Shown here piece by piece: positions 8,717 to 42,497 of a stretch of 42,497 nt of DNA; the first letter of the stretch is position 1, and the number at the start of each line of letters is the position of its first letter. The translations under genes and the position numbers were made by a program. Under the pieces are notes generated by a model. It made no database searches, was not told the origin of the DNA, and saw only the letters and a list, made by a program, of their open reading frames with translations. The stretch is from positions 1-42,497 of the forward strand of contig JACPAX010000011.1 in NCBI GenBank assembly GCA_016180585.1, given 5' to 3'. Source of the stretch: Candidatus Omnitrophota bacterium (GTDB lineage Bacteria > Omnitrophota > Gorgyraeia > 2-02-FULL-51-18).

Positions 8717-8749
8717 CGGTGCCAGAGGGGTCAGACCCCTCTGGCACCG
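8717..8749. repeat. REP-like palindrome, copy 2
   Basis: cggtgccagaggggtcagacccctctggcaccg. Confidence 0.92.
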
Positions 8750-8803: not shown

Positions 8804-8836
8804 AGGTGCCAGGCGGGTCTGACCCCTCTGGCACCT
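8804..8836. repeat. REP-like palindrome, copy 3 (55 bp from copy 2)
   Basis: aggtgccaggcgggtctgacccctctggcacct. Confidence 0.92.
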
Positions 8837-8858: not shown

Positions 8859-11800
8859 TTAAGCGTTTTGGTCGGTTTGGGCCTGCAGGCGGCGCTGGTT
8901 TTGGTAGAACTGCAGGGCTTTTTGCCAGGGGATCCTTGTGACGGCCTTGAATACGAGGTGCTTAGGGGCCTTGCCCAGAAGATGGGCTTTTAGAATGGCG
9001 GCGTCCAGTTTTTCCTTGACCATATCCGAGCAGAGACTGACAAACCAGTCGGGGATGTTGTCCGGGTCGATTCGGCCCGCCGCGACGGAAAGATGAAGCA
9101 CCGCGTCCGGAAAAATGCAACCCTCTTCCATCGTCTCCATGAAGAGAGTGATCCCGTCAAACCCTGCGCCCCCCTCCGCCGGCGCCAGGGCGACTCTCGA
9201 GGCGCTTTCTTCCACTTCGGGAGGCAGGCTTGGAGAGAAAAGCCCGGTCGCTTCCGCTTTTCGAACTCTCTCCGGATCGCCGACCGCCCGGAAATAGACG
9301 TTTTGGCCGAAAGGCAGACGGCGCAGACGCTCCACCCCGGGAATCAAAAACTCTTCCAGATTAAACCCTGGGAATAAATCGACGTCCACCGTCAAGACCA
9401 CGGGCTTCAAAGGAAGCCGGGCCTCGGCGATCCCCTCGGCGACGCGCCTCTCAAGGGCGGCCGTATCCGTGCGGATCTCCTGAAACGACGGAGACGCCTC
9501 CCCTACAGATACGGCGGATTTGCTCCGTCCGGCGATTCGCGCGGACGGGGAAAGGTCAATGTCGACGCACAGGGCCGGACCCTCAAAGGACGCCTGGGTT
9601 CCCTCGGTCTTCCGGTAGCGGTAGACCGTCGCCGGGTCGGTCTGGCCCCTCTCCTTCAGCGCCAGCCTCGACCCGTCCGCCGGCTCCGCGGCCCAGGCGA
9701 CGCTTACCAGAAAGTTTTTAATGCGCCGAGTATCCACTATTGGAGGAGAAAGGGAAAAGGGGAAAGGTGAAAGGAGGGGCGAAGCGGCTTTCTCTAGTGG
9801 ATTGAGTGAATAAGCCCATTGAGCATAGCGGTGATTTCGGCGCAAAAATGGAGAAGTTGATCCGCCTGGTTTTTGGTAAGATAATTCAGCTCTTGAGATA
9901 ACTTGATCAAAGTAATCGATTCCCATGCGGAGCCGCGGGACACGTAGAGGAATTGAATATATTCTTTCCGGTGGTTCCTGCCTTTGCCTTCGGCTATGTT
10001 TGCCGGAATGGATACCGAGGCTCTGCGAAGCTGGCTGGTTAACCCGTAGTGCTCTTCTGTCGGGAACTTCGAAGTGATCCGATAAACTTCCTTGGAGAAC
10101 CTCATGGCTGTCTGCCAAACTTTTAGACCTTCGAAGTCGTGTTGCATTTTCAACTCCTTTGTTTTCGCTTGTCCTTTCCCCTTTTCCCTTTAACCCTTTA
10201 CCTCTATGCGCCAGCCGCGCGCCTCTGGAAAGGGATTCGATCGCCTTTTCCCCTTTTCCCTTTGGCCTTTTACCTTCGTTTGCCTTCCGCCCCCCGCCGG
10301 TTGTCTCCGCCGTTCGGGCGACGTTTGCCGGAAAGGGTGGGATGGGCTGGATATTCAGCGATGCGGCGGCGGGTTGCGTACCGGCCTCAATGGATTCATG
10401 CCACTTTAGGGCAACGGAGGAGAGTCTTTCCCATGTCACCGTACTGCCGTAAATCACCTTGGGCGAACTTTCCATAAGCCGTCTCAAGGCTTCACGGACC
10501 CTTGCGGAAACAGCCTGATTACCGAGTAGCAATGCCGCCGCCGGAAACAAACGCAGCCCCAGGGAATCATCATAAATAGCCCATGAAAAATAATCGGCAA
10601 GAAACCGGATAGTTGAGTCCCGGGTCTGTGCATCCGCCAATTTTTCGGCGACCGGCCGAAGCCCCCGGGCAATCTTGGCAGACAACATGAATGTTTGAAG
10701 AGAAATCAAATCAACCGGGTACCCGCTGAAATTCCATGGCTTGTTATATCTGTCCAGTTCCTCTTTCGATAGAATGCCAAGCAAAGACTCTCTCAGATCA
10801 GCGTCGATGTCGGTCCTCAGCAATCCATAAGTAACAGCGGCAAGGCCTCTCTTCTCCAATAACGCCGACAAGTTTTTGAAGTACAGCCGATCCGTTTCGT
10901 TCTTATCCCCGGCCGCCGCCCCGGATCGATAATGCACATTTCTTGCTACGATGAAGTGGAACCGGCCATCTTTCGCAAGATCGGCAACCTGGTCCACATT
11001 TAAAATATCCAGTTGTCGGAATTGCATCTCAATCCCCCGCCGGGCAAGGTCCTTTTTGTCGGGTGAATAAGTCCGGGCTTCGGCTTCTCCGGAGGGTTTG
11101 AAAAATCTATAAAATCGGTCCCTGGACTCATCGGGCGTCAAATCGTCCCCTTGATTGGCCAGATACAAAGGCCACCGGGCGGACCGTAGTGAATAGTCGC
11201 CTTGGCGGGCTTTCATAACCAGGCGCGGGTCGATATCGCTGACGACTATTTGCGCCCGTATGTTTTTCCCAGTGCGCCCAAGCTCTTCCGCTAAAGCCAT
11301 CGCGACATCATAGCCTTCATGTCCGGCCGCGCTGCCCACCGTAAGAATACGAAGGCTCGCCCCATCTTCCGATTTTAATAAAACATGCGCAACGGACTCG
11401 TTCAGCATGTGCCCATCCCGGCCAAAATAACTCATGGGATCCGCGTCGGCATCGCCGGCGCCCTCCGCCTTCCGCCCCCCGCCTCCAATCACCGGCCGCG
11501 GGCCGGCCCCTTCATCCATAAGCCGGAGAACGCGATCGACCCTTGGGTGAAAGCGCGCCGGAAATTCCGGGTCTGACAGGGCTCGCAAAAGCGAAGGCCG
11601 GGCAGATGCTCCCGCCGACGCAAGAAGCCCCTGGACCATCTCAAGGTTCTGTCTATCCACGTTGAAATCCGCCAGTACCCGCAGAAGATTTGGGACAATC
11701 GGCCCCAGATTTGCCGGGTTGGTTTTTAAAAGCGCCTGAAGAACGGCTTGTTTGTTCAACACACTCCGCCTCGCGTCCAAACCGGGTCTCTCCAGCGCCC

Positions 11801-14800
11801 GGCCGAGAGCGGCGACCACGCGGGGGTCGTTCGAGGCCACTTTGGCCAGAACGCCCGCGGCGCGCCAGGGAAAAGGATTTTGGGGATCTTGAAGGGCCTT
11901 GAGCGCCGCTCCGACGATTCGCCTTCCCCATGCCGCGAGAGTCTTCTCTGCCTGACGGGCCTTGTTATAGTTGTGCCCCCTCAAGACCTCGATGGCTCGC
12001 TCGACCGCGGTCCCGCCGAAAAATGCCCGACCACCGGCCAACCGCCCGCCCACAGCCGCCGCCCGGGCGCCGGATTCATAAATAGCTTGAACCCTTAACG
12101 CTTCACGGGCCCCATGAATACCGGCCCCCAGAGCATGCCTGCTTCCTTGCAACGCTTTGTTTACTTCGGGCACACGCGCAACAACTTTCGCTAACTTCCC
12201 ACGCATCAACACCCTGGAATCGGAGTTCACAAAGTCAACTCGATCTAGCATTCTCTGGACCGCCTGATACCCTCTTGGATCCAAAGGTTCTGTCGCGGCC
12301 TCCCGGTTCTTTGCTCGAAGGCGTTCCTCGATCTCCCTGACTTGTCTTTGCACCGATTGTCTAAACGCCCGAAGTCTGCGGTTTTCTTCGCCAACCAAAG
12401 ACTCGACGCTGCTTGCCAAACTCAGCAAATCCTTTCTCAAATCGTTGAGCTTATCCAGCGCCTGTCGACGCTGTGGGGACACCACAACCGGGAAATTCTG
12501 AGATTTACCGGAGACGTCTTCCGCCGAGATTTTCGGTGAAACGGACCGTAATGGGTAAAACCGGATCTGATCGCCATTTTTAAGATGGATGTCTTGATAA
12601 GAAACTTTTTCGGCCGCGGAAACCACCTCCCCGTTAAGCTCCACGACCAGATACCGGAAGTCACCGGCCCGATCAAAAAGAATGTCCCACATCGTCACGT
12701 CCGAAGGCACCTTCCGTAAAACACCGTTTAAATGAACCTCTATAGTCTCCGGGACTTTCATCGGGAGTTTCTCAGAAATACCAGAGCTCGGTCTAAATTG
12801 CGCAAGTTTGTTCCGGAAATCTTTGGAGTTGGTGACTGTGAAGTCGGACATAAAGTCGGCTTCGTTTAGAATTTTCATTCCTTCGCCGCTTCCCAACGTA
12901 TCAATGATTTCGGCAAATACATCGATTTCACGGAATGTATACAAAATAAAGTTGAACACAATGCTCGCCAGGCTCACAGATGAATAGACGAGGTTGTCCA
13001 AGTCCACGATAGTGCCAAAGTAGGAGCTTCTGCCTTTTCTTCGAACAACGGCGTTTGGACGTTTCGGATCCTCAATAAAAACGCCGCCCGCGCTGGCCAG
13101 ATAAAGCATAAGGTAAGTTTTAATAATGAACCGGTCGCGGGTGGCCCTGTCCAGAACGGCGCGCGTCGGGGGAACAAAGCCTTCCGCCGATACGAGGCGA
13201 TTTCTTCCAAGCCTGTCCTGCCGGACGTAGTAGGAAGTCACCGGGGGGTAAAGATGCAAAAACCGCTCCCTGATCTGGCGCGCGATCTCCACAATTTTGT
13301 CTCCGTAGGTTTTGTTGTAGTCATAGCCGGAGTCCGTCTTCTGAATCTCAGGCTTCACGACCTTCACGACAAACGTAAAATCCTGAGGTTCCTGGCTCAC
13401 CCTCAGGTGGACCTGGTACACCCTCCTAAACGACCCTTCGCCCAGATGCACGATGTCCCGCGATTTAACCACGTCGGGAGTCAAATCCGGACGTGCGAAT
13501 ATCTCCTCAAACACGTCCTTTAGAAAAACAGTATCTCTCAAAAGATCCTCCACGACTCTTCTGTCCTCTGTCTCTTCTTCGAGCACTTTACGATGTTCGG
13601 CGACCATAGAATCTATTACCTCGAGGTCCACTCCGAAATCGCCGATCAAACTGATAAGATCCTCCCAGCTGGCGCGCCTAAAATCTCCTGTTTGAATCTC
13701 GGCGAGCGAAACAGCGCCAAAAGAAACCCGGCGAGTCCTCGTCGGAGGGTATCCGAGATCTCTCAGCATTTCGGGAAGCCGTTCTTCGTCGCCATATTTG
13801 ACAGTAACCAGAATGTGGCGCGAATCATTATCCGCTGCAAATTTCACATTCGTCGGCCTGAAAATAAACGGCTCTCCGGATCCATCTCGGATTTGTCCGA
13901 CTTCGATGCCTGATTGAATCCTCCGAACATCCTTTTCGCCCAGGTTATGGTCATAAGATAATTCGTAGATCAAAGGAATTGAAGTGCCGGGGTTGTCTTT
14001 CGCCAAACGGTCCAATTCGGAATTCAACGTAAGGATCACAAGACCTTCTTGCTCGTCCGGTAGACCCGCAAGGACATAAGATTCCTTGAAACTGGAGGGT
14101 AACCGGCCCCATAAGGATGACTTTTGCTCTTTGGAAAGCGATTCGCCCGGTCTTTTATAGACGACCATGGTTTCTTCCGGCTTTATCATAAACTTGGGAC
14201 GCCTATTTTCGGCCCACAGGTGGTTATTTTCAGCTCTCCGAACTCCGGAACCTTTACGACGCTCACCGGGTCTCATCCCGAAATCCCGCAGAAGAAGAGT
14301 AAGAGCGCGCCCGCTGGGAGTGATTCCCTCTCTGCCCGGGAGAAGCCCGATCATCGAGCGGCGCGGGGAGCGGGCTTCGGCGGAGGGGCGGATCGGGCCG
14401 GATTGGCCCAGAAGAAGGTTTTCGTATCGGACGGGGTTGGTTTCGTGGAGGATCCGCGGCGTGATCGAAAGATAGGAAATATTTCTTTGCCTAAAGAGCG
14501 CCTTCAAGTGCTCGGTGTGATGGCCGCCGGCGACGAGGACCGCTTTCTTCTGGCCGCTCTCCTCCATCTTCGAGAGCATGTTTCTCAAAAAAGCCTCGTC
14601 GCGGCGCCGCGCGAGCGCATAAAACTCGATCGCGTCCGCGAAGCCCGCCTCATACTGCGGATCGAGAAAAATCGCCTCCTCGTGATGCGAGCCGAGCTCG
14701 AGAATTTTGCGGTTGAGGAGGCCCGCAAGCTCGACGGGGTCGAACGCGGACGGATTCCCGCGTATCGCCTCCTCGTCGCGGCCCCCGAGCTCCAGATTCA

Positions 14801-15815
14801 CGAGCCGCCTTAAGACCTCCAGCGAACGGGAGACCTCAAGGAGCGCCCTCTCATCGGCCGACTCCGCGAGGGCCGCGGCGAGCGCGTCCTCGAGCGCCTC
14901 CTTCTCCTCCAAAATTTTTCCCGCGTCGATTGTTTTGGCAAGCTCGAGATAATCGAGATAGGCGGAGTGACGCAGACTAAAACTGTCCTCCGAGGCGTAG
15001 CGCAGACTTAAGTCTGCGCTACGGGCGGAAGTGAAAGCGAATTCCCCGAAGTCGATCTTTGATTCTTTTTGGCGAAGGGCCTCGAGCCGCCCAAGATGAG
15101 GGAAACGCGCCGCGATCCCCAGCCGGCGCGCCTCGGCGGTCAGCGCCTCCAGGTAAGCGGCAAGCGGGATTTTATTCCGCAGGAAATCTTCCCTGAGGGC
15201 ATCCATCCGGAGAAGCCCGTAGCGGTAAAAGCGGGGTTTGAGCGTCTCGAGCGCGCGGCGGAGCCGGTCCAGACAGGCGTTGAGGTGTCCGCGCTTTTCG
15301 CGGAGACGGCGGTAGCGGTCGAGGCTTTCCCGGTAAAGCGTTTTGTCCTCGACGCCCCAGAGCAAAAAAGGCCGGCTTGAGGTGATGTCCAGATAATCCG
15401 GTCCCTGGATCAACCCGCGCCTCAGGAATTTCCGGGCGACGGATTCTTTTTTCGCGGCGGTCCCGTAATTTCTTAAGAATGAAAGGGAGTCGTCGCCGGT
15501 CCCGGCCTCCAGAAACACATGGCGGACCGGCTCTCTCTCGAGAATCGTCCCGATCGCCCGGGCGATATTTCTCTGGGCGGAGTCGTTGGCGTGCGCGTCT
15601 TGCAAAAGATAAATAAGTTCGGAGTTGGGAGTTCGGTGTTCGGAGAGAAAGACGTCCTCGACCACGGCGACCGAGGGCGGGAACTGAATCCGAAGCGCGG
15701 ATTCCGGGAAGATCCCCGTGACGTCCGGGTCCGGGTTGGCATAGGCCAGATCCTGAATCAAAAACGCCGCGACGAGGACCGAGGCGATGGACCTCAGAAC
15801 CGGTCTTTTTGGCAA
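8859..15815 (-). CDS. Giant secreted multidomain protein (2318 aa): signal peptide, ChaN/TraB-like N-domain, protein-kinase-like domain, ThiS/MoaD-like beta-grasp, HEAT-like region, CheR-like SAM methyltransferase, C-terminal domain
   Basis: N-term MPKRPVLRSIASVLVAAFLIQDLAYANPD (TTG start, AAGGAG upstream). GEGSFRRVYQVHLR...FVVKVVKP; ETIEVHLNGVLRKVPSDVTMWDILF...LKNGDQIRFYPL; LRILTVGSAAGHEGYDVAMALAEELG...VVSDIDPRLVMKARQGDYSLR. Domain names are by pattern only. Confidence 0.75.
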   Translation of the reverse strand: MPKRPVLRSIASVLVAAFLIQDLAYANPDPDVTGIFPESALRIQFPPSVAVVEDVFLSEHRTPNSELIYLLQDAHANDSAQRNIARAIGTILEREPVRHVFLEAGTGDDSLSFLRNYGTAAKKESVARKFLRRGLIQGPDYLDITSSRPFLLWGVEDKTLYRESLDRYRRLREKRGHLNACLDRLRRALETLKPRFYRYGLLRMDALREDFLRNKIPLAAYLEALTAEARRLGIAARFPHLGRLEALRQKESKIDFGEFAFTSARSADLSLRYASEDSFSLRHSAYLDYLELAKTIDAGKILEEKEALEDALAAALAESADERALLEVSRSLEVLRRLVNLELGGRDEEAIRGNPSAFDPVELAGLLNRKILELGSHHEEAIFLDPQYEAGFADAIEFYALARRRDEAFLRNMLSKMEESGQKKAVLVAGGHHTEHLKALFRQRNISYLSITPRILHETNPVRYENLLLGQSGPIRPSAEARSPRRSMIGLLPGREGITPSGRALTLLLRDFGMRPGERRKGSGVRRAENNHLWAENRRPKFMIKPEETMVVYKRPGESLSKEQKSSLWGRLPSSFKESYVLAGLPDEQEGLVILTLNSELDRLAKDNPGTSIPLIYELSYDHNLGEKDVRRIQSGIEVGQIRDGSGEPFIFRPTNVKFAADNDSRHILVTVKYGDEERLPEMLRDLGYPPTRTRRVSFGAVSLAEIQTGDFRRASWEDLISLIGDFGVDLEVIDSMVAEHRKVLEEETEDRRVVEDLLRDTVFLKDVFEEIFARPDLTPDVVKSRDIVHLGEGSFRRVYQVHLRVSQEPQDFTFVVKVVKPEIQKTDSGYDYNKTYGDKIVEIARQIRERFLHLYPPVTSYYVRQDRLGRNRLVSAEGFVPPTRAVLDRATRDRFIIKTYLMLYLASAGGVFIEDPKRPNAVVRRKGRSSYFGTIVDLDNLVYSSVSLASIVFNFILYTFREIDVFAEIIDTLGSGEGMKILNEADFMSDFTVTNSKDFRNKLAQFRPSSGISEKLPMKVPETIEVHLNGVLRKVPSDVTMWDILFDRAGDFRYLVVELNGEVVSAAEKVSYQDIHLKNGDQIRFYPLRSVSPKISAEDVSGKSQNFPVVVSPQRRQALDKLNDLRKDLLSLASSVESLVGEENRRLRAFRQSVQRQVREIEERLRAKNREAATEPLDPRGYQAVQRMLDRVDFVNSDSRVLMRGKLAKVVARVPEVNKALQGSRHALGAGIHGAREALRVQAIYESGARAAAVGGRLAGGRAFFGGTAVERAIEVLRGHNYNKARQAEKTLAAWGRRIVGAALKALQDPQNPFPWRAAGVLAKVASNDPRVVAALGRALERPGLDARRSVLNKQAVLQALLKTNPANLGPIVPNLLRVLADFNVDRQNLEMVQGLLASAGASARPSLLRALSDPEFPARFHPRVDRVLRLMDEGAGPRPVIGGGGRKAEGAGDADADPMSYFGRDGHMLNESVAHVLLKSEDGASLRILTVGSAAGHEGYDVAMALAEELGRTGKNIRAQIVVSDIDPRLVMKARQGDYSLRSARWPLYLANQGDDLTPDESRDRFYRFFKPSGEAEARTYSPDKKDLARRGIEMQFRQLDILNVDQVADLAKDGRFHFIVARNVHYRSGAAAGDKNETDRLYFKNLSALLEKRGLAAVTYGLLRTDIDADLRESLLGILSKEELDRYNKPWNFSGYPVDLISLQTFMLSAKIARGLRPVAEKLADAQTRDSTIRFLADYFSWAIYDDSLGLRLFPAAALLLGNQAVSARVREALRRLMESSPKVIYGSTVTWERLSSVALKWHESIEAGTQPAAASLNIQPIPPFPANVARTAETTGGGRKANEGKRPKGKGEKAIESLSRGARLAHRGKGLKGKGERTSENKGVENATRLRRSKSLADSHEVLQGSLSDHFEVPDRRALRVNQPASQSLGIHSGKHSRRQRQEPPERIYSIPLRVPRLRMGIDYFDQVISRAELSYQKPGGSTSPFLRRNHRYAQWAYSLNPLEKAASPLLSPFPFSLSPPIVDTRRIKNFLVSVAWAAEPADGSRLALKERGQTDPATVYRYRKTEGTQASFEGPALCVDIDLSPSARIAGRSKSAVSVGEASPSFQEIRTDTAALERRVAEGIAEARLPLKPVVLTVDVDLFPGFNLEEFLIPGVERLRRLPFGQNVYFRAVGDPERVRKAEATGLFSPSLPPEVEESASRVALAPAEGGAGFDGITLFMETMEEGCIFPDAVLHLSVAAGRIDPDNIPDWFVSLCSDMVKEKLDAAILKAHLLGKAPKHLVFKAVTRIPWQKALQFYQNQRRLQAQTDQNA
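9749..10276. mobile_element. bIVP-containing element with flanking inverted repeats, inserted in the giant ORF
   Basis: aaagggaaaaggggaaagg (9749-9767) is the exact reverse complement of cctttccccttttcccttt (10173-10191). A second similar copy of the right arm is at 10244-10276. Confidence 0.7.
9794..10153 (-). CDS. Four-helix-bundle protein, 23S rRNA intervening-sequence protein (bIVP/S23) family, nested out of frame inside the giant ORF
   Basis: MQHDFEGLKVWQTAMRFSKEVYRITSKFPTEEHYGLTSQLRRASVSIPANIAEGKGRNHRKEYIQFLYVSRGSAWESITLIKLSQELNYL matches the family hallmark VWQ..., FP..E.YGLT.Q.RRA.VSIP.NIAEG.GR. Confidence 0.92.
   Translation of the reverse strand: MKMQHDFEGLKVWQTAMRFSKEVYRITSKFPTEEHYGLTSQLRRASVSIPANIAEGKGRNHRKEYIQFLYVSRGSAWESITLIKLSQELNYLTKNQADQLLHFCAEITAMLNGLIHSIH
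14996..15023. repeat. 28-bp perfect palindrome CGTAGCGCAGACTTAAGTCTGCGCTACG inside the giant ORF
   Basis: Read directly; same core as 3914-3940. Encoded in frame within SARSADLSLRYA. Confidence 0.93.
15617..15645. repeat. agttcggagttgggagttcggtgttcgga short repeat inside the giant ORF (encodes SEHRTPNSE)
   Basis: Iterated TTCGG/GGAGTT units, similar to the intergenic repeat at 6156-6220. Confidence 0.6.
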
Positions 15816-34504: not shown

Positions 34505-37500
34505 TTAAAAATCCGGCGGCGCGCAATTCGGAATGTCAAAAACCGCAAGCTCGGCCTTTCCGCCGGCCTCATCGAAACCCAAAATAAAACTACCGTGATT
34601 TTCATCGGCCCTTTTCGCGGCATTGGCGTCATCGTCTTTACTCTTTGACCGGCTCAGCGGGAGCAAAAAATGGTGGGTATGCAGTCTATTGGGCGCGAAA
34701 TGATCCAGGCGCTGGACCGCTACCTCATCGCCCTCCGCCGAAACAAGCATGACATCGCCGAACGATTCCATCCCGATCTCGCGACGGCCGACGGCCTTTT
34801 GCATCCGGTAAATTTCCCGAAGACTTTTAAACGGCGCGCGGACCACGATAGCCGGTCCTTCCCCTTGAAGGCGTTTGATGGGATTCCGGCCGGCAGGAAT
34901 CAGCCTCTCCTTAAGGGCCCGGGTAATCCCATCCGACGCTTTTTGGCGGTCTCCCTCATTTAAAGAACGCCACAGCCAAAACTCCGCCCATCCCGGCGTT
35001 CCCCCAAGCTCGGTTTCTTCCTCCACGCTGTAATCCACAGGAAAGTCCACGGTCAGCCGGGCCAACAACCGAACGTATTCGTTCAATAGCGGTCCTGAGC
35101 CGGTTTCCTCGATTTTATTCGCCAACGCTTGGAAATAAGGCCTTGTTTGGCTAAGCGCGGCGGAAGGCGCGTCCAGCAACGCCTGAATGCGGGCGACCAA
35201 GCTATCGCCCGGCATCCGGTCCGGATTTAAATCCGCCTGCGACTCCAAGGTAAGCTGAGGTCGTATCTGGTCGAACAGGAATGTCTGGACGCTGCCGGGA
35301 GCGTCGTCAAAGCGGATGCCGATTTTATTATTTTCCACGTCAAGGCGAGCCACTTCCCCCGGTCCAAACGAATTATGGCTTATCCTCTCCCCTTTTTTAA
35401 ACAGCCCCGCCGCCGCGCGGATACCGGCTGGGGATTCACCGGCGAGTATTGAATCCGCCATGATTTTTCGGACTTGGCTCTTCAGTCTCAAGACCATCCC
35501 CTCGTCCATGACGTCCCCCGTGGACGGGGAGAAAAAGTCCACGCCCTCCTCCCGATAGAGCTGAATCATGCGCAGGATGATCGGCTTTAAAGTCTCAAAG
35601 TCCTGATTGATCGCCCAGCCCAGCCAGTTGACGACGCTCACGAAATAGTCGATGTCTGTGTGTTTCCAAAGCGCCGCCGTTCCGATGTGCAGGCGCGCCA
35701 CCGCGCCGGTCTCCGCGATGCGGTAGATATCGTAATGTTTGACGTCAAATTTGTCGGTTTCGATCTCTTCCATCAAATACCGGTGCCGGCCCGGCGGGTT
35801 GTTGGGGAAAATAAGAAGATAGGAGAATACGCGCAGGGCGTCTTCGAACGGCGTCCCTTCGATAGCTTGCCTTCTCTCGGCGGTCAAGCCAAGATTCACG
35901 TGAGTATTGGCGGAGCTGATCTCAAATAAAAACTCACCTGTCGGAAGCCGGTAAAGCGCTTCGAGGAAATGCCGAAGAGCGCCGGCTTTCACAAACACCG
36001 GGGAGTTAAGCTCAAGACCATCGGGAGGAACGCGGTCCTGATTGGCAAATTCGGGTTCAAGACCTGCCGAGATAAAGAAGGTTTGAAGAAGCGTCTCCTG
36101 CACCCCCTTCTCCTCGAAATAACGCCGGGCGAGGGCTTCGGCCTGGCGGTAAAGGAGGGCCGCTGCGACAATGGCCAGAAACTCATGGATCCACTCCTGA
36201 AAAGAGTCGTCGTCATCCGCCAGCTCTTTTTTTTTGGCCTCATATTGATCGATAAGCACGGTCAGCGCGGAGACAATGGAGTCTTCATCCCTACTTCCCA
36301 AAGAGAGGGCCAAAAACTGGCTCTCGGCCTTTTCTCCGTGGTTTACGGCATCCTTAAACTGCGACAGAAGCTCTTCGGTGGAGAGGTGGTCGGTTCGGAC
36401 GGAGACCTGGTCGGCGTATTCATAAACCGAACGATGTCGGCTTTCACTCCCCGAAGCAATAGTAAGCCAGGAGGTGGCGGATTGGGCGGAGGGGCCGATG
36501 ACACCGAGGGCCAGAACGGCCTGTTTATAAACGGATGGGCTTTTATCCCCCAACGCGTTGGTGAGCGCAGGGATGGCGGATTGGGCGGAGGGGCCGATGA
36601 CACCGAGGGCCCGGGCGGCGTATTCACGAACGAGCGAGTCTTTATCCTCCAAGGCGCCGGTGAGCTCAGGGACGGCGGATTGGGCGGGGGGGGCAATGAT
36701 ACCGAGGGCCCGGGCGGCGTGTCGACGAACGAGTGAGTCTTTATCCCCCAACGCGTCAGTGAGCGCAGGGATGGCGGATTGGGCGGCGGGACCCATTGGC
36801 CAAATAAAGAGAGGCATTATGGCAGTCACAAAACCATTTGCCCGTTTAGAAAATCTCATCAAACCTTGCACGGTATACGGCTGATCAGGCAATCCGGGCA
36901 GTTGAATCTCCGCCGGCCTCGCCCCTCCCGCTTCCGCTGAGTCTCTTTGAAGAGCCTTGCGGGTCCCGGCGTCCTTTGGGGGCGTCGGACTTGATTTTCC
37001 GGTTTCCTTGCCCGGATAGGAGCGAGGCGTCTCCGCGGGTAAATGGCCGTGCCGGATGCGCCGCCAGAAGTAAACGGCCGGCATCACAAACAGCGTGACA
37101 AAGGCCAATAGCCAGACCCCTAGAGCGGACCCCATCAAAAGCGCTTGTCCGCGTATGTCCTGACTCAAGAACAAAGACAATCGCGTCGGCCAGGCGGGCC
37201 GTTCCTCAAGCCGGATTCCGAAAATCCGGCAGAGATCCTTGGCGGACTCCCATCCGTCGACGGCATAGGCCATGCCGGCGGCCACCGCGAGCGGAACGTG
37301 CTTGTAACCCGATTTCAGGCGGACCGCCGCCGCATCCTCAACCGCATAGGGCAGGAAGCCCGCGGCGAGGGGGTTTTGGGGTTCTTCAAATAAAATCCTT
37401 TTGGCCCCATTTTTTTCCCAACGCTCAAAAGATCCGGGCGAATAAATCCACCAGAGAACCATTCCCTGCTCGACATCCGCGTCGAGGTTGAGGCCTTTGA

Positions 37501-40500
37501 TGGACCGCGGAAACCGGGGGCTGCTTCTCAGGAGGTCTATCGCCTCCCTCATCCGGTCGCTCAAAACCAGATAGCGGTCTTTGGTCGGGAGATTGAGCTC
37601 ATCGGCGATGAGGTCGCCCAAGGGATCGGGCGCCTTGAGATCCCCGCGGTCATAATAAACGCGCGGCGGAAATCCGGCCCTTGCCCGCTCAAGCGCTTTG
37701 TCCAAAGCCAGTGTCAAATCCTCAAAAGAAGCGTCCACGCTCGCCTCCCCCCAGGCTTTTAATACTTCATCCGCTTCGCGGGCGTCCGACGGAGCGGCGG
37801 CGGGGCTGTCTTTAACCGCTCTCAGGCGCTCGACGGCAAGGGGGGTCCGCACCGCCTTCATGGGCTGCAGTCCTCTAAAAGCGCCGACCCTGACCGTTTG
37901 GTCGGCGTCGTTTAACGCGGCATTCAAAAGCGCCTCCATGGATTCCCGCATGCGCAGACGGTAGAGGACCTCCGTCGCCCAAAGGCGCATTTGGGCATCG
38001 CGATCACGCAGCATCTGGATAGCGGCCGGCAGGGCCGCGCTTCCCATCTCGGGAAGTTGGAAGTGGACAATTCGATGGGCTTCTGTTTCTCTACGAGGAG
38101 CGTCGGAAGCGAACCTGGAACTCAGAGCCCTTAACTCTTCAACCAAGTCTTGGGCAAGAGACGGCGTTCTCTGCTCATCCCACGCCTCGGGCGCCTGCGC
38201 CACAGCCGCCCAACCCTGCAAAAAAACCGCCAAAAGAAGTCCCCGCGCATACCCGGCCACGCGCGCCCGCCATTCCCCCGCCGCTTGCCGCGCGCCTCCC
38301 GGGCTTTCTTTTAACTCCAATAACTCCAGCTGAGCGTCGCCAAAGATTTTCTGGCCGGTCCTGGCGTTGAACCAGGCTGCTTTGCCCCGGTTTGGCCCGG
38401 ATTTGAAAGTGATGACGAAGCGACCGGCGGGTTCTTCGGCCTGTGTCCGGAGAATTTCGTCCGGTTGGATCCCGTATTGTTTCAAGGCCTTGATGAACCC
38501 GAGGGCCATCCGGAGAGGGCTGTCAAACGGAATACCGGGGTCTATGGTCATCCGGAAGAGTTCTTGCTGACGGGGCAGGTTCCGGACCTTGCGCAGAAAT
38601 TCGTCCCTCCTGCGCCTAAACTCCCTCGATTGGGCTCTCCGGTCGATTTCATTCTGGATCATCACATCCAGATGGGGGTTTTGCTCGATCATCCGGGGCA
38701 AGGCCGCGAAGGAATCCCGCGCGTCATAAGCGGCCTCGACCTGCCGGATAATAGCCTTCTCTTGGTGATCTCGATACGCCACATAAAAGAACGCGCCGAG
38801 CAGCACGGCCATCAGGCCCGCGATGAGCGCAGGTTTTGTCCAACGACTTGCGGTCTTCGCTCCGCTTTCCCCGGCCCGTGAGTCCTCCGCCAGCCGCCCT
38901 CCGGAGGGCGTGGCTTTCCCCTCCCCGATTAATTGGATAACCGTCTTGATGCTTTCCTTGTGCCCCAAGACCCCCATCGGAGCGTCAAGAATGGCTTTAT
39001 AGACAATCGCCTCCGTTGTTTTGCCGGTTGTAAGCAGTCTGACCATTTCAAAAACCGAGTTGAGCATTCGATAGATTTCAAATGCGTCTTTCTCTTTTCC
39101 GTTTATACCCTTTAACCACGGAATCCCCCACGTTTCATCCCGGGCCAGCGTTTCGAGCGCTTCTTCGCTTAGCCGGCAAACAGTCCCATTCGATTGGGTG
39201 AGCTCATAAGCCCGGGCATCCTGTGAAACTCGGTGATCCGGAATATCCAAAAGTTTTTTAATCTTTCCTTCCGCTTCCTCGCGAAGCGCTGCGCCCTGAG
39301 GTAGCCAATTCTCCAGGATAGGCTCAGAGAGGGATAAATACAGGCAACTGCTTACAATCTCGCCTTGAACCTCATAGAAAATACGGCCGTACCCGGGGCT
39401 AAAACCGATCAGATGAACCGTCTCTCCATTAAGCCGTCTTTCCCGCGCTTGATCCGGAGCCAAGAGAACCCGTTCTTGAGTGTCCCTCCAAACCAATAGC
39501 CCTTCTTTTAAACCCAAAAGATTGTCTTGGATCTCCTCTCCTTCAACCAATGCGATGAATGGAATCTGTCTACGGTCTGATTCTTCGGTATGGGCATCCC
39601 CCACTTCAAAAAAAGAATCCTTGGCTGTCTTTTGAGTCCATTCTTCCATGGACAGGCGCTTGGCAAGAAAGCCCCAGCGGATATTCACCACGGGATTTCG
39701 GTAACCTGATTCAACGGTAGTGAAAGAAGGTCGCCTCAGCTTCTCCTGATGGCGGGCAATAGCTCTTTGATACTGATAAGGCCAATCGCCTTGTCGATAA
39801 CGGCCATCGATATTGAAACTCTCCATAGGCCCATGCCAGCGATCGGACCGGTCTTCACCATATAATGCAAGAGCCAGTTCCGCTATCCCTTGAAACCATG
39901 GCTCGTAATCGGAGGTTTTCTCCGGATCACGGCTCAAGACTTGAATCAGTGCGGTGAGATCGGTGGTCCGGCCGGCCTGGTTCATGATTGGATTGAAATT
40001 CTCAGCTTCCATAAGTTCCGGATGACCGATCAGAAGCAGCCTTAATTCCTGCCTTTCCAAACCTCCCCAATTTTTGGGGATTTGGTTTAACTCGGGAAGA
40101 AGCGCTTCTTCCGTGTAGGGCTGATAACGGGCATCGAAGAAGCTTCTCTCTGCTTTCGCAATCTCCACCAGGGCAAGAAAACGACGGTAAGCACCGTCGA
40201 TTTGCCAGACGAGGGACTTGGCTTCTTCGATTTGCCAGACGAGGGACTTGGCTTCTTCGATCCGGTTGAAACCGGCAAGGGCTTTCACAATCTCCAACCA
40301 GGCAAGAGCACGACGGTCAAAATCGCCGATTTGCCGGGCGAAGGATTGGGCTTCAGCGAGTCCTTCGCGACCTTGAGTGGCTTTCATAATCTCCAACCAG
40401 GCAGGAGGACGACGGTCAACATCGCCGATTTGCCGGGCGAAGGATTGGGCTTCAGCGGGTCCTTCGCGACCTTGAGTGGCTTTCATAATTTCTAACCAGG

Positions 40501-42497
40501 CAAGAGAATAATAGTAAGCATCGTCAATTTGCCGGGCGAGGGACTTGGCTTCTTCGATCCGGTTGAAACCGGCAAGGGCTTTCACAATCTCCGACCAGGC
40601 AAGAAAACGATGGTGATCAATGTTGATTTGCCAGGCGGAGGACTTGGCTTCAGCGAGTCCTTCGCGACCTTGAGTGGCTTTCATAATTTCTAACCAGGCA
40701 AGAGAACGATAGTAAGCAGTGTCGATTTGCTGTAACTTGACATATGCACTATAGTAATCCAGCTCAAATACCTTCATGGCTTCCAGCAAGACCTCTCTTC
40801 TGAGGACCGGTTTATCTTCCGCCTTCCTCGTCCCTACCCCGCCGCCTGTGGCAGGGTCGGTGCCAGGGGGGTCCGGATCCGGCAGAGAAGTGCCGGACAT
40901 CTGATGGTAAACCACCGCGGCGCCGGTCAAAATCTCTGCGGCATGGTCAAAGGCGCGCGGGTCGGCGCTAAGTAATTTGGCCGTTTTAGCCGCATCGAGA
41001 TATTGAGCGCGGGCTTCTGCTCTCCCTTCGTCTCCCGCCTCCCCCGATAAACTCGGCAGGGTTGACGGCCATTGGGATCGATCATCCGCAAATACCGGCT
41101 CACCGGCTCTTGCCGCCTCCCTCGTCCCTACCCCGCCGGCTGTGGCAGGGTGGGCGACGGGGCCGGTGGGGTTGGCTATCGAATCCCCCATGATTTTTTT
41201 GATTTGATCCTTCAGTCTTAGAATTTTTCTATCATTCATCGTGTCTTGGGCGGAAGCGGAGAAAAGATCAACGCCCTCTTCTTCATAAAGTTTGGCAATT
41301 TGCAGGATGATTGGTTTCAAAGTCTCAAAGTCCTGATTGATCGCCCAGCCCATCCAGTTGACGACGCTGACAAAGTAGTCGATGTCGGTGTCTTTCCAGA
41401 GCGCGGCCGATCCGACGTGCAAGCGGGCGACCACGCCCGTTTCTTGGTTGTCGCGGATGTTCTCAGTCTTGATGTCAAACTTGTCGGTTCTGATATCTTC
41501 CATCAGATAGCGGTGTCTTCCGGGAGGATTGTTGGGAAAAACGAGAAGATAGGACAACACCCGCAGGACGTTCTCTAGGCTTGTGCTTTTAATCGCCTTG
41601 TTCCTTTCGACGGTCAGGCCGAGATTGATGTGGGTGTTGGCGGAGCTGATGTTAAACAAGAACTCGCCCGTCGGGAGTTTGTAGAGCGCTTCAAGAAAAC
41701 CCCGGAGCTGATCCGCGCTTGAGAACACCGGCGAGTCGAGCTCAAGGCCCTCCGGTGGATTTCTATCTTGATTGGCAAATTCGGGCTCAAGCCCGGCTGA
41801 GACAAAGAGGGTCTTGAGGAAAGTGGTTCGGGTTACTCTGTCCTCAGAATATCGTTTGGCGAGCTTGCCGGCCTGGTGGTAGAGAAGCGAGGCGACGAGG
41901 ATGGAGAGTTTTTTTTCCACCCAGTCCTCAAACTCGCTGTTTGAAGTGGTTTGTCTTCTTTTTTCCTCGTAAAGAGCGACGAGAAGCTCAAATGCTTCAT
42001 GGATGGAGTCGTCATCCATCCCTCCGATACTTAACGCCAGGGATCGACTTTCCGAAAACCGTTCTTTTTCTACGGCATCACGAAACAAAGAAACCGCTTC
42101 CTTGAGTACAGAGCCGATTTGGCCGAGGGCCCAGGCGGCGTTTTGACGAACGGATGGATTTTCATCACCCAAGGCGGCGATGAGTGATGGGATGGCGGCG
42201 GGGCCGATTTGGCCGAGGGCCCAGGCGGCGTTTTGACGAACGGATGGATTTTTACTACCCAAGGCGGCGATGAGTGATGGGATGGCGGCTTGGGCAGCGG
42301 GGCCGATTTGGCCGAGGGCCCAGGCGGCGCTTTGACGAACGGATGGATTTTTACTACCCAAGACGGCGATGAGTGATGGGATGGCGGCATGGGCAGCGGG
42401 GCCGATTTGGCCGAGGGCCCAGGCGGCGCTTTGACGAACGGATGGATTTTCACCACCCAAGACGGCGATGAGTGATGGGATGGCGGCGGGGCCGATT
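34505..42497 (-). CDS. Giant repeat protein (over 2651 aa, 5' end beyond window): HEAT arrays, duplicated module of about 400 aa, TPR-like array, about 3 TM segments, Tudor/UvrD-C-like patch
   Basis: Open to the right edge. HEAT units AAIPSLIAALGSKNPSVRQSAAWALGQIGPA and SAIPALTNALGDKSPSVYKQAVLALGVIGPSAQ; two copies of the SAGLEPEFANQDR..PP.GLEL.SPVF...FPNNPPGRHRYLME...TDIDYFVSVVNW.GWAINQDFETLKPIIL module. Confidence 0.85.
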   Translation of the reverse strand, partial: IGPAAIPSLIAVLGGENPSVRQSAAWALGQIGPAAHAAIPSLIAVLGSKNPSVRQSAAWALGQIGPAAQAAIPSLIAALGSKNPSVRQNAAWALGQIGPAAIPSLIAALGDENPSVRQNAAWALGQIGSVLKEAVSLFRDAVEKERFSESRSLALSIGGMDDDSIHEAFELLVALYEEKRRQTTSNSEFEDWVEKKLSILVASLLYHQAGKLAKRYSEDRVTRTTFLKTLFVSAGLEPEFANQDRNPPEGLELDSPVFSSADQLRGFLEALYKLPTGEFLFNISSANTHINLGLTVERNKAIKSTSLENVLRVLSYLLVFPNNPPGRHRYLMEDIRTDKFDIKTENIRDNQETGVVARLHVGSAALWKDTDIDYFVSVVNWMGWAINQDFETLKPIILQIAKLYEEEGVDLFSASAQDTMNDRKILRLKDQIKKIMGDSIANPTGPVAHPATAGGVGTREAARAGEPVFADDRSQWPSTLPSLSGEAGDEGRAEARAQYLDAAKTAKLLSADPRAFDHAAEILTGAAVVYHQMSGTSLPDPDPPGTDPATGGGVGTRKAEDKPVLRREVLLEAMKVFELDYYSAYVKLQQIDTAYYRSLAWLEIMKATQGREGLAEAKSSAWQINIDHHRFLAWSEIVKALAGFNRIEEAKSLARQIDDAYYYSLAWLEIMKATQGREGPAEAQSFARQIGDVDRRPPAWLEIMKATQGREGLAEAQSFARQIGDFDRRALAWLEIVKALAGFNRIEEAKSLVWQIEEAKSLVWQIDGAYRRFLALVEIAKAERSFFDARYQPYTEEALLPELNQIPKNWGGLERQELRLLLIGHPELMEAENFNPIMNQAGRTTDLTALIQVLSRDPEKTSDYEPWFQGIAELALALYGEDRSDRWHGPMESFNIDGRYRQGDWPYQYQRAIARHQEKLRRPSFTTVESGYRNPVVNIRWGFLAKRLSMEEWTQKTAKDSFFEVGDAHTEESDRRQIPFIALVEGEEIQDNLLGLKEGLLVWRDTQERVLLAPDQARERRLNGETVHLIGFSPGYGRIFYEVQGEIVSSCLYLSLSEPILENWLPQGAALREEAEGKIKKLLDIPDHRVSQDARAYELTQSNGTVCRLSEEALETLARDETWGIPWLKGINGKEKDAFEIYRMLNSVFEMVRLLTTGKTTEAIVYKAILDAPMGVLGHKESIKTVIQLIGEGKATPSGGRLAEDSRAGESGAKTASRWTKPALIAGLMAVLLGAFFYVAYRDHQEKAIIRQVEAAYDARDSFAALPRMIEQNPHLDVMIQNEIDRRAQSREFRRRRDEFLRKVRNLPRQQELFRMTIDPGIPFDSPLRMALGFIKALKQYGIQPDEILRTQAEEPAGRFVITFKSGPNRGKAAWFNARTGQKIFGDAQLELLELKESPGGARQAAGEWRARVAGYARGLLLAVFLQGWAAVAQAPEAWDEQRTPSLAQDLVEELRALSSRFASDAPRRETEAHRIVHFQLPEMGSAALPAAIQMLRDRDAQMRLWATEVLYRLRMRESMEALLNAALNDADQTVRVGAFRGLQPMKAVRTPLAVERLRAVKDSPAAAPSDAREADEVLKAWGEASVDASFEDLTLALDKALERARAGFPPRVYYDRGDLKAPDPLGDLIADELNLPTKDRYLVLSDRMREAIDLLRSSPRFPRSIKGLNLDADVEQGMVLWWIYSPGSFERWEKNGAKRILFEEPQNPLAAGFLPYAVEDAAAVRLKSGYKHVPLAVAAGMAYAVDGWESAKDLCRIFGIRLEERPAWPTRLSLFLSQDIRGQALLMGSALGVWLLAFVTLFVMPAVYFWRRIRHGHLPAETPRSYPGKETGKSSPTPPKDAGTRKALQRDSAEAGGARPAEIQLPGLPDQPYTVQGLMRFSKRANGFVTAIMPLFIWPMGPAAQSAIPALTDALGDKDSLVRRHAARALGIIAPPAQSAVPELTGALEDKDSLVREYAARALGVIGPSAQSAIPALTNALGDKSPSVYKQAVLALGVIGPSAQSATSWLTIASGSESRHRSVYEYADQVSVRTDHLSTEELLSQFKDAVNHGEKAESQFLALSLGSRDEDSIVSALTVLIDQYEAKKKELADDDDSFQEWIHEFLAIVAAALLYRQAEALARRYFEEKGVQETLLQTFFISAGLEPEFANQDRVPPDGLELNSPVFVKAGALRHFLEALYRLPTGEFLFEISSANTHVNLGLTAERRQAIEGTPFEDALRVFSYLLIFPNNPPGRHRYLMEEIETDKFDVKHYDIYRIAETGAVARLHIGTAALWKHTDIDYFVSVVNWLGWAINQDFETLKPIILRMIQLYREEGVDFFSPSTGDVMDEGMVLRLKSQVRKIMADSILAGESPAGIRAAAGLFKKGERISHNSFGPGEVARLDVENNKIGIRFDDAPGSVQTFLFDQIRPQLTLESQADLNPDRMPGDSLVARIQALLDAPSAALSQTRPYFQALANKIEETGSGPLLNEYVRLLARLTVDFPVDYSVEEETELGGTPGWAEFWLWRSLNEGDRQKASDGITRALKERLIPAGRNPIKRLQGEGPAIVVRAPFKSLREIYRMQKAVGRREIGMESFGDVMLVSAEGDEVAVQRLDHFAPNRLHTHHFLLPLSRSKSKDDDANAAKRADENHGSFILGFDEAGGKAELAVFDIPNCAPPDF
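40201..40260. repeat. Perfect 30-bp tandem duplication in the TPR-like array
   Basis: tttgccagacgagggacttggcttcttcga x2; protein SLVWQIEEAKSLVWQI. Confidence 0.97.
40292..40730. repeat. About 99-bp period tandem coding repeats (TPR/PPR-like helices)
   Basis: Repeats EAQSFARQIGDVDRRPPAWLEIMKATQGREGLA; 'ctccaacca' anchors at 40292 and 40391 are 99 bp apart. Confidence 0.85.
40826..40857. repeat. Linker repeat copy 1 (encodes PATGGGVGTRKA)
   Basis: cctcgtccctaccccgccgcctgtggcagggt; one mismatch to 41120-41151. Confidence 0.88.
41120..41151. repeat. Linker repeat copy 2 (encodes PATAGGVGTREA)
   Basis: cctcgtccctaccccgccggctgtggcagggt. Confidence 0.88.
42113..42497. repeat. Near-identical HEAT-coding tandem repeats with mixed 90/99-bp periods
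   Basis: gccgattt anchors at 42113, 42203, 42302, 42401, 42491: spacings 90, 99, 99, 90. Confidence 0.95.

Follow-up and report, generated by a model that had tools for sequence, protein, structure and literature searches.

A 23S-IVP-family gene between inverted heptamer arms within open protein-coding frames of Omnitrophota and other bacterial phyla

How can a gene of the 23S rRNA intervening sequence (IVS) type lie within a protein-coding gene whose own reading frame remains open? The question is raised by a 42,497-nucleotide stretch of DNA from a Candidatus Omnitrophota bacterium (contig JACPAX010000011.1 of assembly GCA_016180585.1), hereafter the window, in which a 23S-IVP-family gene (IVP gene) lies inside a giant ORF. 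IVS elements, with their conserved ORF, have puzzled rRNA biologists since the 1990s. The IVP element, small and selfish in appearance, had mainly been described in rRNA genes and is found here in protein genes of several bacterial phyla.

The IVP gene and its arms in the window

The features of the locus are as follows, in window coordinates.

8859..15815, minus strand: host, a 2318-aa modular ORF that contains the element
10290..11441, minus strand: host part before the element, a CheR-like methyltransferase domain (PF01739 match) and linker
8862..9746, minus strand: host C-terminal domain, after the element; a 62% identical homologue occurs in the same-genus genome G001
9749..10263, minus strand: element, approximate extent, stop-free in the host −1 frame; outer limits estimated from the arms
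9794..10147, minus strand: IVP (four-helix-bundle) gene, 117 aa, with ATG at 10147 and stop codon TAG at 9794-9796; PF05635 and TIGR02436
10154..10160, minus strand: Shine-Dalgarno sequence AAAGGAG (..AAAGGAGTTGAAAATG), read from the sequence, within the host ORF and 6 nt ahead of the ATG
9749..9767, no strand: inverted heptamer array, arm downstream of the IVP gene; exact 19-bp inverted repeat with 10173-10191
10173..10191, no strand: inner upstream arm, AAAGGGAAAAGGGGAAAGG in minus-strand reading; exact 19-bp inverted repeat with 9749-9767
10245..10263, no strand: outer upstream arm, AAAGGGAAAAGGGGAAAAG in minus-strand reading; one mismatch

In profile searches, the window IVP ORF matched PF05635 (23S_rRNA_IVP) with an E value of 3.1e-40 (137 bits; cut-off, 33.8) and TIGR02436 with 5.5e-40 (136 bits; cut-off, 24), which places the protein above both curated cut-offs and thus in the 23S-IVP family. 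It also matched PDB 2gsc by sequence (E 5e-22). The AlphaFold2 model of a nested relative (G009, modeled with its family) was a four-helix bundle with a pLDDT of 95; its best PDB match was 2gsc (TM 0.97), and it also resembled Avd 4dwl (TM 0.8). A preliminary description of this DNA had placed a 23S-IVP-type gene within the giant ORF, on the same strand and in another frame, and this was borne out (ORF 9794-10153 inside 8859-15815, both on the minus strand). The 119-aa length given there counted from a TTG at 10153; the ATG at 10147, behind the Shine-Dalgarno sequence, is the better start and gives 117 aa. The exact 19-bp inverted repeats on either side of the gene were likewise present, as was the reported second copy of the right arm. 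The host ORF crosses the IVP gene stop-free one base earlier, that is, in the −1 frame and, as had also been noted, reads the element as a low-complexity peptide between the CheR-like domain and the C-terminal domain. Given this IVP protein and its own codons, the probability of an open −1 frame by chance was 0.004.

The preliminary description suggested a search for relatives of the giant protein lacking the segment; this search yielded no exact empty site of the window insertion. The CheR-like half was detected in the window's own genome only, among 13 of the family, and in G001 the homologue of the C-terminal domain also ends a modular ORF but follows a different upstream domain. The giant host protein was not found in viral contigs. 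Two near-perfect palindromes GGTGCCAGAGGGGTCAGACCCCTCTGGCACC lie downstream of the giant ORF, at 8717-8749 and 8804-8836, and a translated stretch resembling them, VPGGSDPSGT, occurs in frame within the linker of the G001 ORF that is homologous to the giant one. A second giant ORF in the window (34505-42460) encodes 2651 aa and is rich in HEAT repeats.

The own genome contains five IVP genes, one other of which is also nested, in a homologous giant ORF and in the same relative frame. When these loci were examined for flanking repeats, as had been proposed, inverted arms were found at each, with a different word at each gene. The arm word AAAGGGAAAAGGGGAAAGG (the AAAGGG word), suggested earlier as a mark of other IVP loci, is specific to this locus; beyond it, the 19-bp word gave weak matches only in the rest of the genome. 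Searches for the AAAGGG word elsewhere fail because the word differs from element to element. Inverted arrays of another type (CCCTCACCC / GGGTGAGGG) occur in the own genome outside an IVP element, around pilin-like genes (L003, G000:C53).

Inverted heptamer arms at IVP loci

Each arm is an array of degenerate 7-nt words, inverted relative to the other arm, and such arms flank about two-thirds of the IVP genes in many phyla, against 3-4% of controls. To score the arms, the 300 nt upstream of an IVP gene were compared with the 300 nt downstream, the score being that of the best inverted match, with a threshold of 13; control windows were taken elsewhere in the same loci and hence are not matched intergenic gaps. 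IVP genes were present in 37 of 59 related genomes. The inverted score reached 13 at 50 of 75 relatives' loci, compared with 10 of 282 control windows (p 4e-32), whereas direct matches reached it at only 5 of the 75. Among named loci from many phyla, the corresponding numbers were 51 of 76 and 13 of 504 (p 1e-41). A best period of 7 was found in 82 of 150 relatives' flanks, with harmonics at 14 and 21, compared with 14 of 134 control stretches, and in 107 of 152 flanks of named loci, compared with 13 of 138 controls.

The flanking repeat is a degenerate heptamer array whose word varies by element. The words follow the lineage of the IVP gene: an arm word was common to 0.7% of locus pairs at low IVP similarity and to 64% at the highest, and none of 1000 permutations reached the observed mean. 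Shared words had the same orientation in 82 cases and the opposite orientation in 4. Arm words common to a genome rather than to an IVP lineage were ruled out, as only 1 of 40 within-genome pairs shared a word. Together, the tracking of IVP similarity, the constant orientation and the rarity of sharing within a genome indicate that the arms and the IVP gene travel as a unit.

The same anatomy was found in an rRNA gene. In Azospirillum lipoferum (AZO_p2), an IVP unit with heptamer arms lies inside a complete 23S rRNA gene, at the helix-45 motif, and the LSU model (1-2925) spans the element. Through this unit, the elements in protein genes are connected with the classical IVS. Within the window, no Rfam family was matched, and the element lies in a protein ORF rather than in a 23S rRNA gene. 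Heptamer-armed IVP elements also occur on cyanobacterial plasmids, between cas6 and cas4 (L258, Anabaena sp. 90) and between two ribonucleotide reductase genes (L259, Nostoc edaphicum); no IVP was found in phage records. In Calothrix brevissima, plasmids 1 and 2 (L256 and L257) carry the same IVP element beside an integrase gene, in a shared segment.

Nested copies and their host frames

Nested IVP loci, each in a longer ORF that is open across the element, numbered 17 in five phyla (the window's own counted as one), and the frame was always −1. Twelve were in 392 genomes of the class, one further in the phylum and four in named genomes (Phycisphaerae, Thiohalocapsa, Clostridia and Thermodesulfovibrio); the wider searches used host-frame peptides as queries, which favour nested copies, so that 17 is a count and not a rate. 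The count omits L187, in which a break in the left arm disrupts the host frame, L213, at a contig end, and L263, which is GC-rich with no host. The earlier proposal that an IVP gene within a coding sequence that keeps the host frame would be a new niche is thus supported by 17 loci in the same frame and by empty sites in known families. No earlier report of IVP elements within protein genes was found in the open-licence PMC literature.

By homology, the hosts include well-known families with clear empty sites, among them BREX PglX at one site in two phyla, the type III Mod protein, further methyltransferases, and giant modular proteins. The host in G183 is a BREX-1 PglX, in which residues 1-985 match residues 1-979 of solved BrxX and residues 1141-1353 match 991-1202; the empty site is thus 985/1141, equivalent to BrxX 979/991. 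A Clostridia PglX, from another phylum, is interrupted at the same place (1001/1149; BrxX 976/993), and the two proteins can be aligned over their full length, both inserts included. The host in G259 is a type III Mod protein; L132, L162 and L205 have further DNA methyltransferases or R-M-related proteins as hosts, and the host at L159 looks by inspection like a COG1743-type methylase. The element of G008 interrupts a domain that both the window's own host and G000:C8 have in one piece. G303 and G025 have the insertion in a homologous surface protein, at the same site; because these genomes belong to different families, the copy is old.

Several hosts have further features. One 2819-aa ORF of G303 (L129) contains two IVP copies, the second truncated, and the G009 host (L135) shows, immediately ahead of the element, a C-terminal motif (..THNFIGNGIVAHNT) of intein/Hint-like type. 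Short solo in-frame heptamer hairpins lacking an IVP gene were observed in the Mod of G259 (L133) and the PglX of G183 (L131, G183a), with two more in the L162 methyltransferase; one solo hairpin, at GLPDV/YQVE, is at the same point as the IVP element of G183b.

All nested loci are from draft or metagenome-assembled genomes, as would be expected if the nesting were an artefact of assembly or binning; ORFs might also overlap by chance. We regard both origins as highly implausible, since the 17 loci come from many independent assemblies, the same host gene and site recur in G303 and G025 and in the PglX of two phyla, and the IVP gene has a family match at E 3e-40 with the Shine-Dalgarno sequence and ATG in place.

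The openness of the host frame was compared with expectation under synonymous codon shuffling. At 6 of 75 relatives' loci, the −1 frame was stop-free into a long ORF, against 0.06 expected, and at 6 of 80 named loci it was open, against 0.86 expected. The +1 frame was open at none, with none expected, and this zero chance of openness accounts for the constant −1 relative frame. The other 69 relatives' loci, which are non-nested, had at least five stops each in the −1 frame; because nested cases are recognised by the open frame, part of this contrast is ascertainment. In GC-rich genomes, an open −1 frame is not a rare outcome by chance (P 0.10-0.30 for L162, L205 and L213), and that of Gemmatirosa L263 is open with no recognisable host. 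Openness is therefore weak evidence in such genomes, and we relied there on host homology on both sides.

These observations are probably best explained by an IVS-type insertion element whose translatability in the host frame lets it survive within coding genes. It would consist of an IVP gene equipped with a ribosome-binding site and flanked by two inverted arrays of degenerate 7-nt words; this would be the unit known as the classical 23S rRNA IVS, here placed in a protein-coding gene. The host ribosome would read through the element in the −1 frame, so that the host protein would gain roughly 125-180 disordered residues, usually within a linker or loop, and the IVP would be translated in the other frame from a start of its own inside the element. 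Host read-through combined with internal initiation at the IVP start appears to account most simply for a host frame that is open around an internal Shine-Dalgarno sequence and ATG. The host protein would then be made through the element, and both frames would be used in the cell.

The arms could instead act at the RNA level, pairing in the mRNA so that RNase III removes the element and the host protein is made in two pieces or not at all. RNase III removal is documented for 23S rRNA elements (PMC4990558), and the inverted arms of the window element are paired in its minimum-energy RNA fold. However, the predicted fold was no better than that of shuffled sequences (z −0.74), an unexceptional hairpin stability, and the C-terminal part of the window host has no evident ribosome-binding site of its own. 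Moreover, excision in the absence of ligation needs no open frame, yet all counted copies are open. We therefore consider RNA-level excision improbable.

A second alternative shares read-through with translation of the element in the host frame and differs only in the origin of the open frame. Elements would land at random, and copies in coding genes would be culled unless the −1 frame happened to be open, with no later maintenance or adaptation. This survivorship is a possible but rather unlikely account. It yields the constant frame with no adaptation, −1 being the only frame realistically open and +1 essentially never, and the nested cases are scattered over several lineages. On the other hand, stop counts at relatives' loci were bimodal, either zero or at least five. 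Nested copies also clustered on the gene tree, indicating that open-frame copies spread as lineages: on a first tree, the six nested copies needed two changes (shuffled mean, 5.8), and on a larger, faster tree, with local support only and many forks open, the 17 needed nine (shuffled, 16.4); none of 500 shuffles was as low in either case. On the trees, one lineage abounds in giant-ORF insertions, and several cases in methyltransferases stand apart. Finally, the host frame is open in four copies whose IVP frame is disrupted, by a stop in G025 and G183b and by truncation in G008 and G303b.

The orthologous copies in G303 and G025 differ at 24 of 115 residues in the IVP frame and at 54 in the host frame. 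Third positions of IVP codons took 46 of the 73 changes, indicating that the IVP frame is the more constrained of the two. No host-frame stop arose between these copies (redraw P = 0.039); with this value alone from the ortholog test, survivorship at insertion is hard to part from later selection. The host-frame peptide, modeled with a pLDDT of 47 and no secondary structure, looks like tolerated filler when set against the confident IVP model.

Related systems, movement and meaning

Palindromes are known from within coding genes, such as the Rickettsia palindromic elements, where they lie in frame and are tolerated as extra peptide. Like them, the elements described here are inserted in frame in conserved protein genes with empty sites (PglX, Mod and the G008 host). 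Rickettsia-type elements have no gene of their own, however, whereas these carry an overprinted conserved IVP gene; the solo hairpins of G259, G183a and L162 behave like the Rickettsia elements and are the closer match. Inteins are also in-frame inserts in a host protein, but the insert here has no splicing domain, and its host frame encodes no known fold.

IVS elements with an S23/IVP ORF are known from the 23S rRNA genes of Coxiella and Leptospira (PMC4990558). They resemble the present elements in having an IVP gene between complementary arms over about 430-500 nt, with heptamer arms in the Azospirillum example, and differ in that the host here is a protein gene and the element is open in the −1 frame. 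Degenerate 7-nt arrays are also familiar as the heptameric repeats of Xanthomonas, Nostoc and Beggiatoaceae and the cyanobacterial STRR, with inverted pairs reported in Xanthomonas, and the available portions of the two sources contain no link to IVP genes or coding-sequence insertions (PMC4692102, PMC4679880).

The unit would be mobile, and by analogy with Avd of diversity-generating retroelements (DGRs), the IVP may bind nucleic acid and help the unit move. A rival on movement only is that a stand-alone IVP acts like DGR Avd, with a reverse transcriptase supplied in trans. The two proteins have the same fold (TM about 0.8), and PF05635 resembles Avd according to the literature (PMC10053308). 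However, the window IVP scored 29.1 bits against the NCBIfam Avd equivalog cut-off of 80, and no reverse transcriptase (RVT_1) was matched in any of ten genomes with nested elements, which are drafts (the own genome being 81% complete), while controls were detected. Such retro-mobility appears improbable. Genes of Y1 (REP-type) transposases, the feature looked for in a REPIN/RAYT-type element, were found in all ten carriers and in 49 of the 59 relatives, namely, 34 of 37 with IVP genes and 15 of 22 without (p 0.03), making the Y1 transposase a weak candidate for an alternative mover of the unit. G259 has at least 15 near-identical Y1 transposase copies (IS200-like) on many contigs.

In a broader reading, to which we give even chances of being right or wrong, heptamer-armed IVP genes would form one broad class of mobile elements of bacteria and archaea, with the 23S IVS as one landing site. 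At least one lineage would have adapted to protein genes through a stop-free −1 frame, one DNA encoding both the IVP and a harmless host insert.

With the unit defined by its heptamer arms and by clean empty sites in PglX, Mod and giant proteins, its mobility and the role of the IVP become testable. The nested loci offer a natural example of overprinting, with a conserved gene lying on host coding sequence. They are also a source of disordered inserts in the methyltransferases of defence systems, which annotation pipelines are likely to misread.
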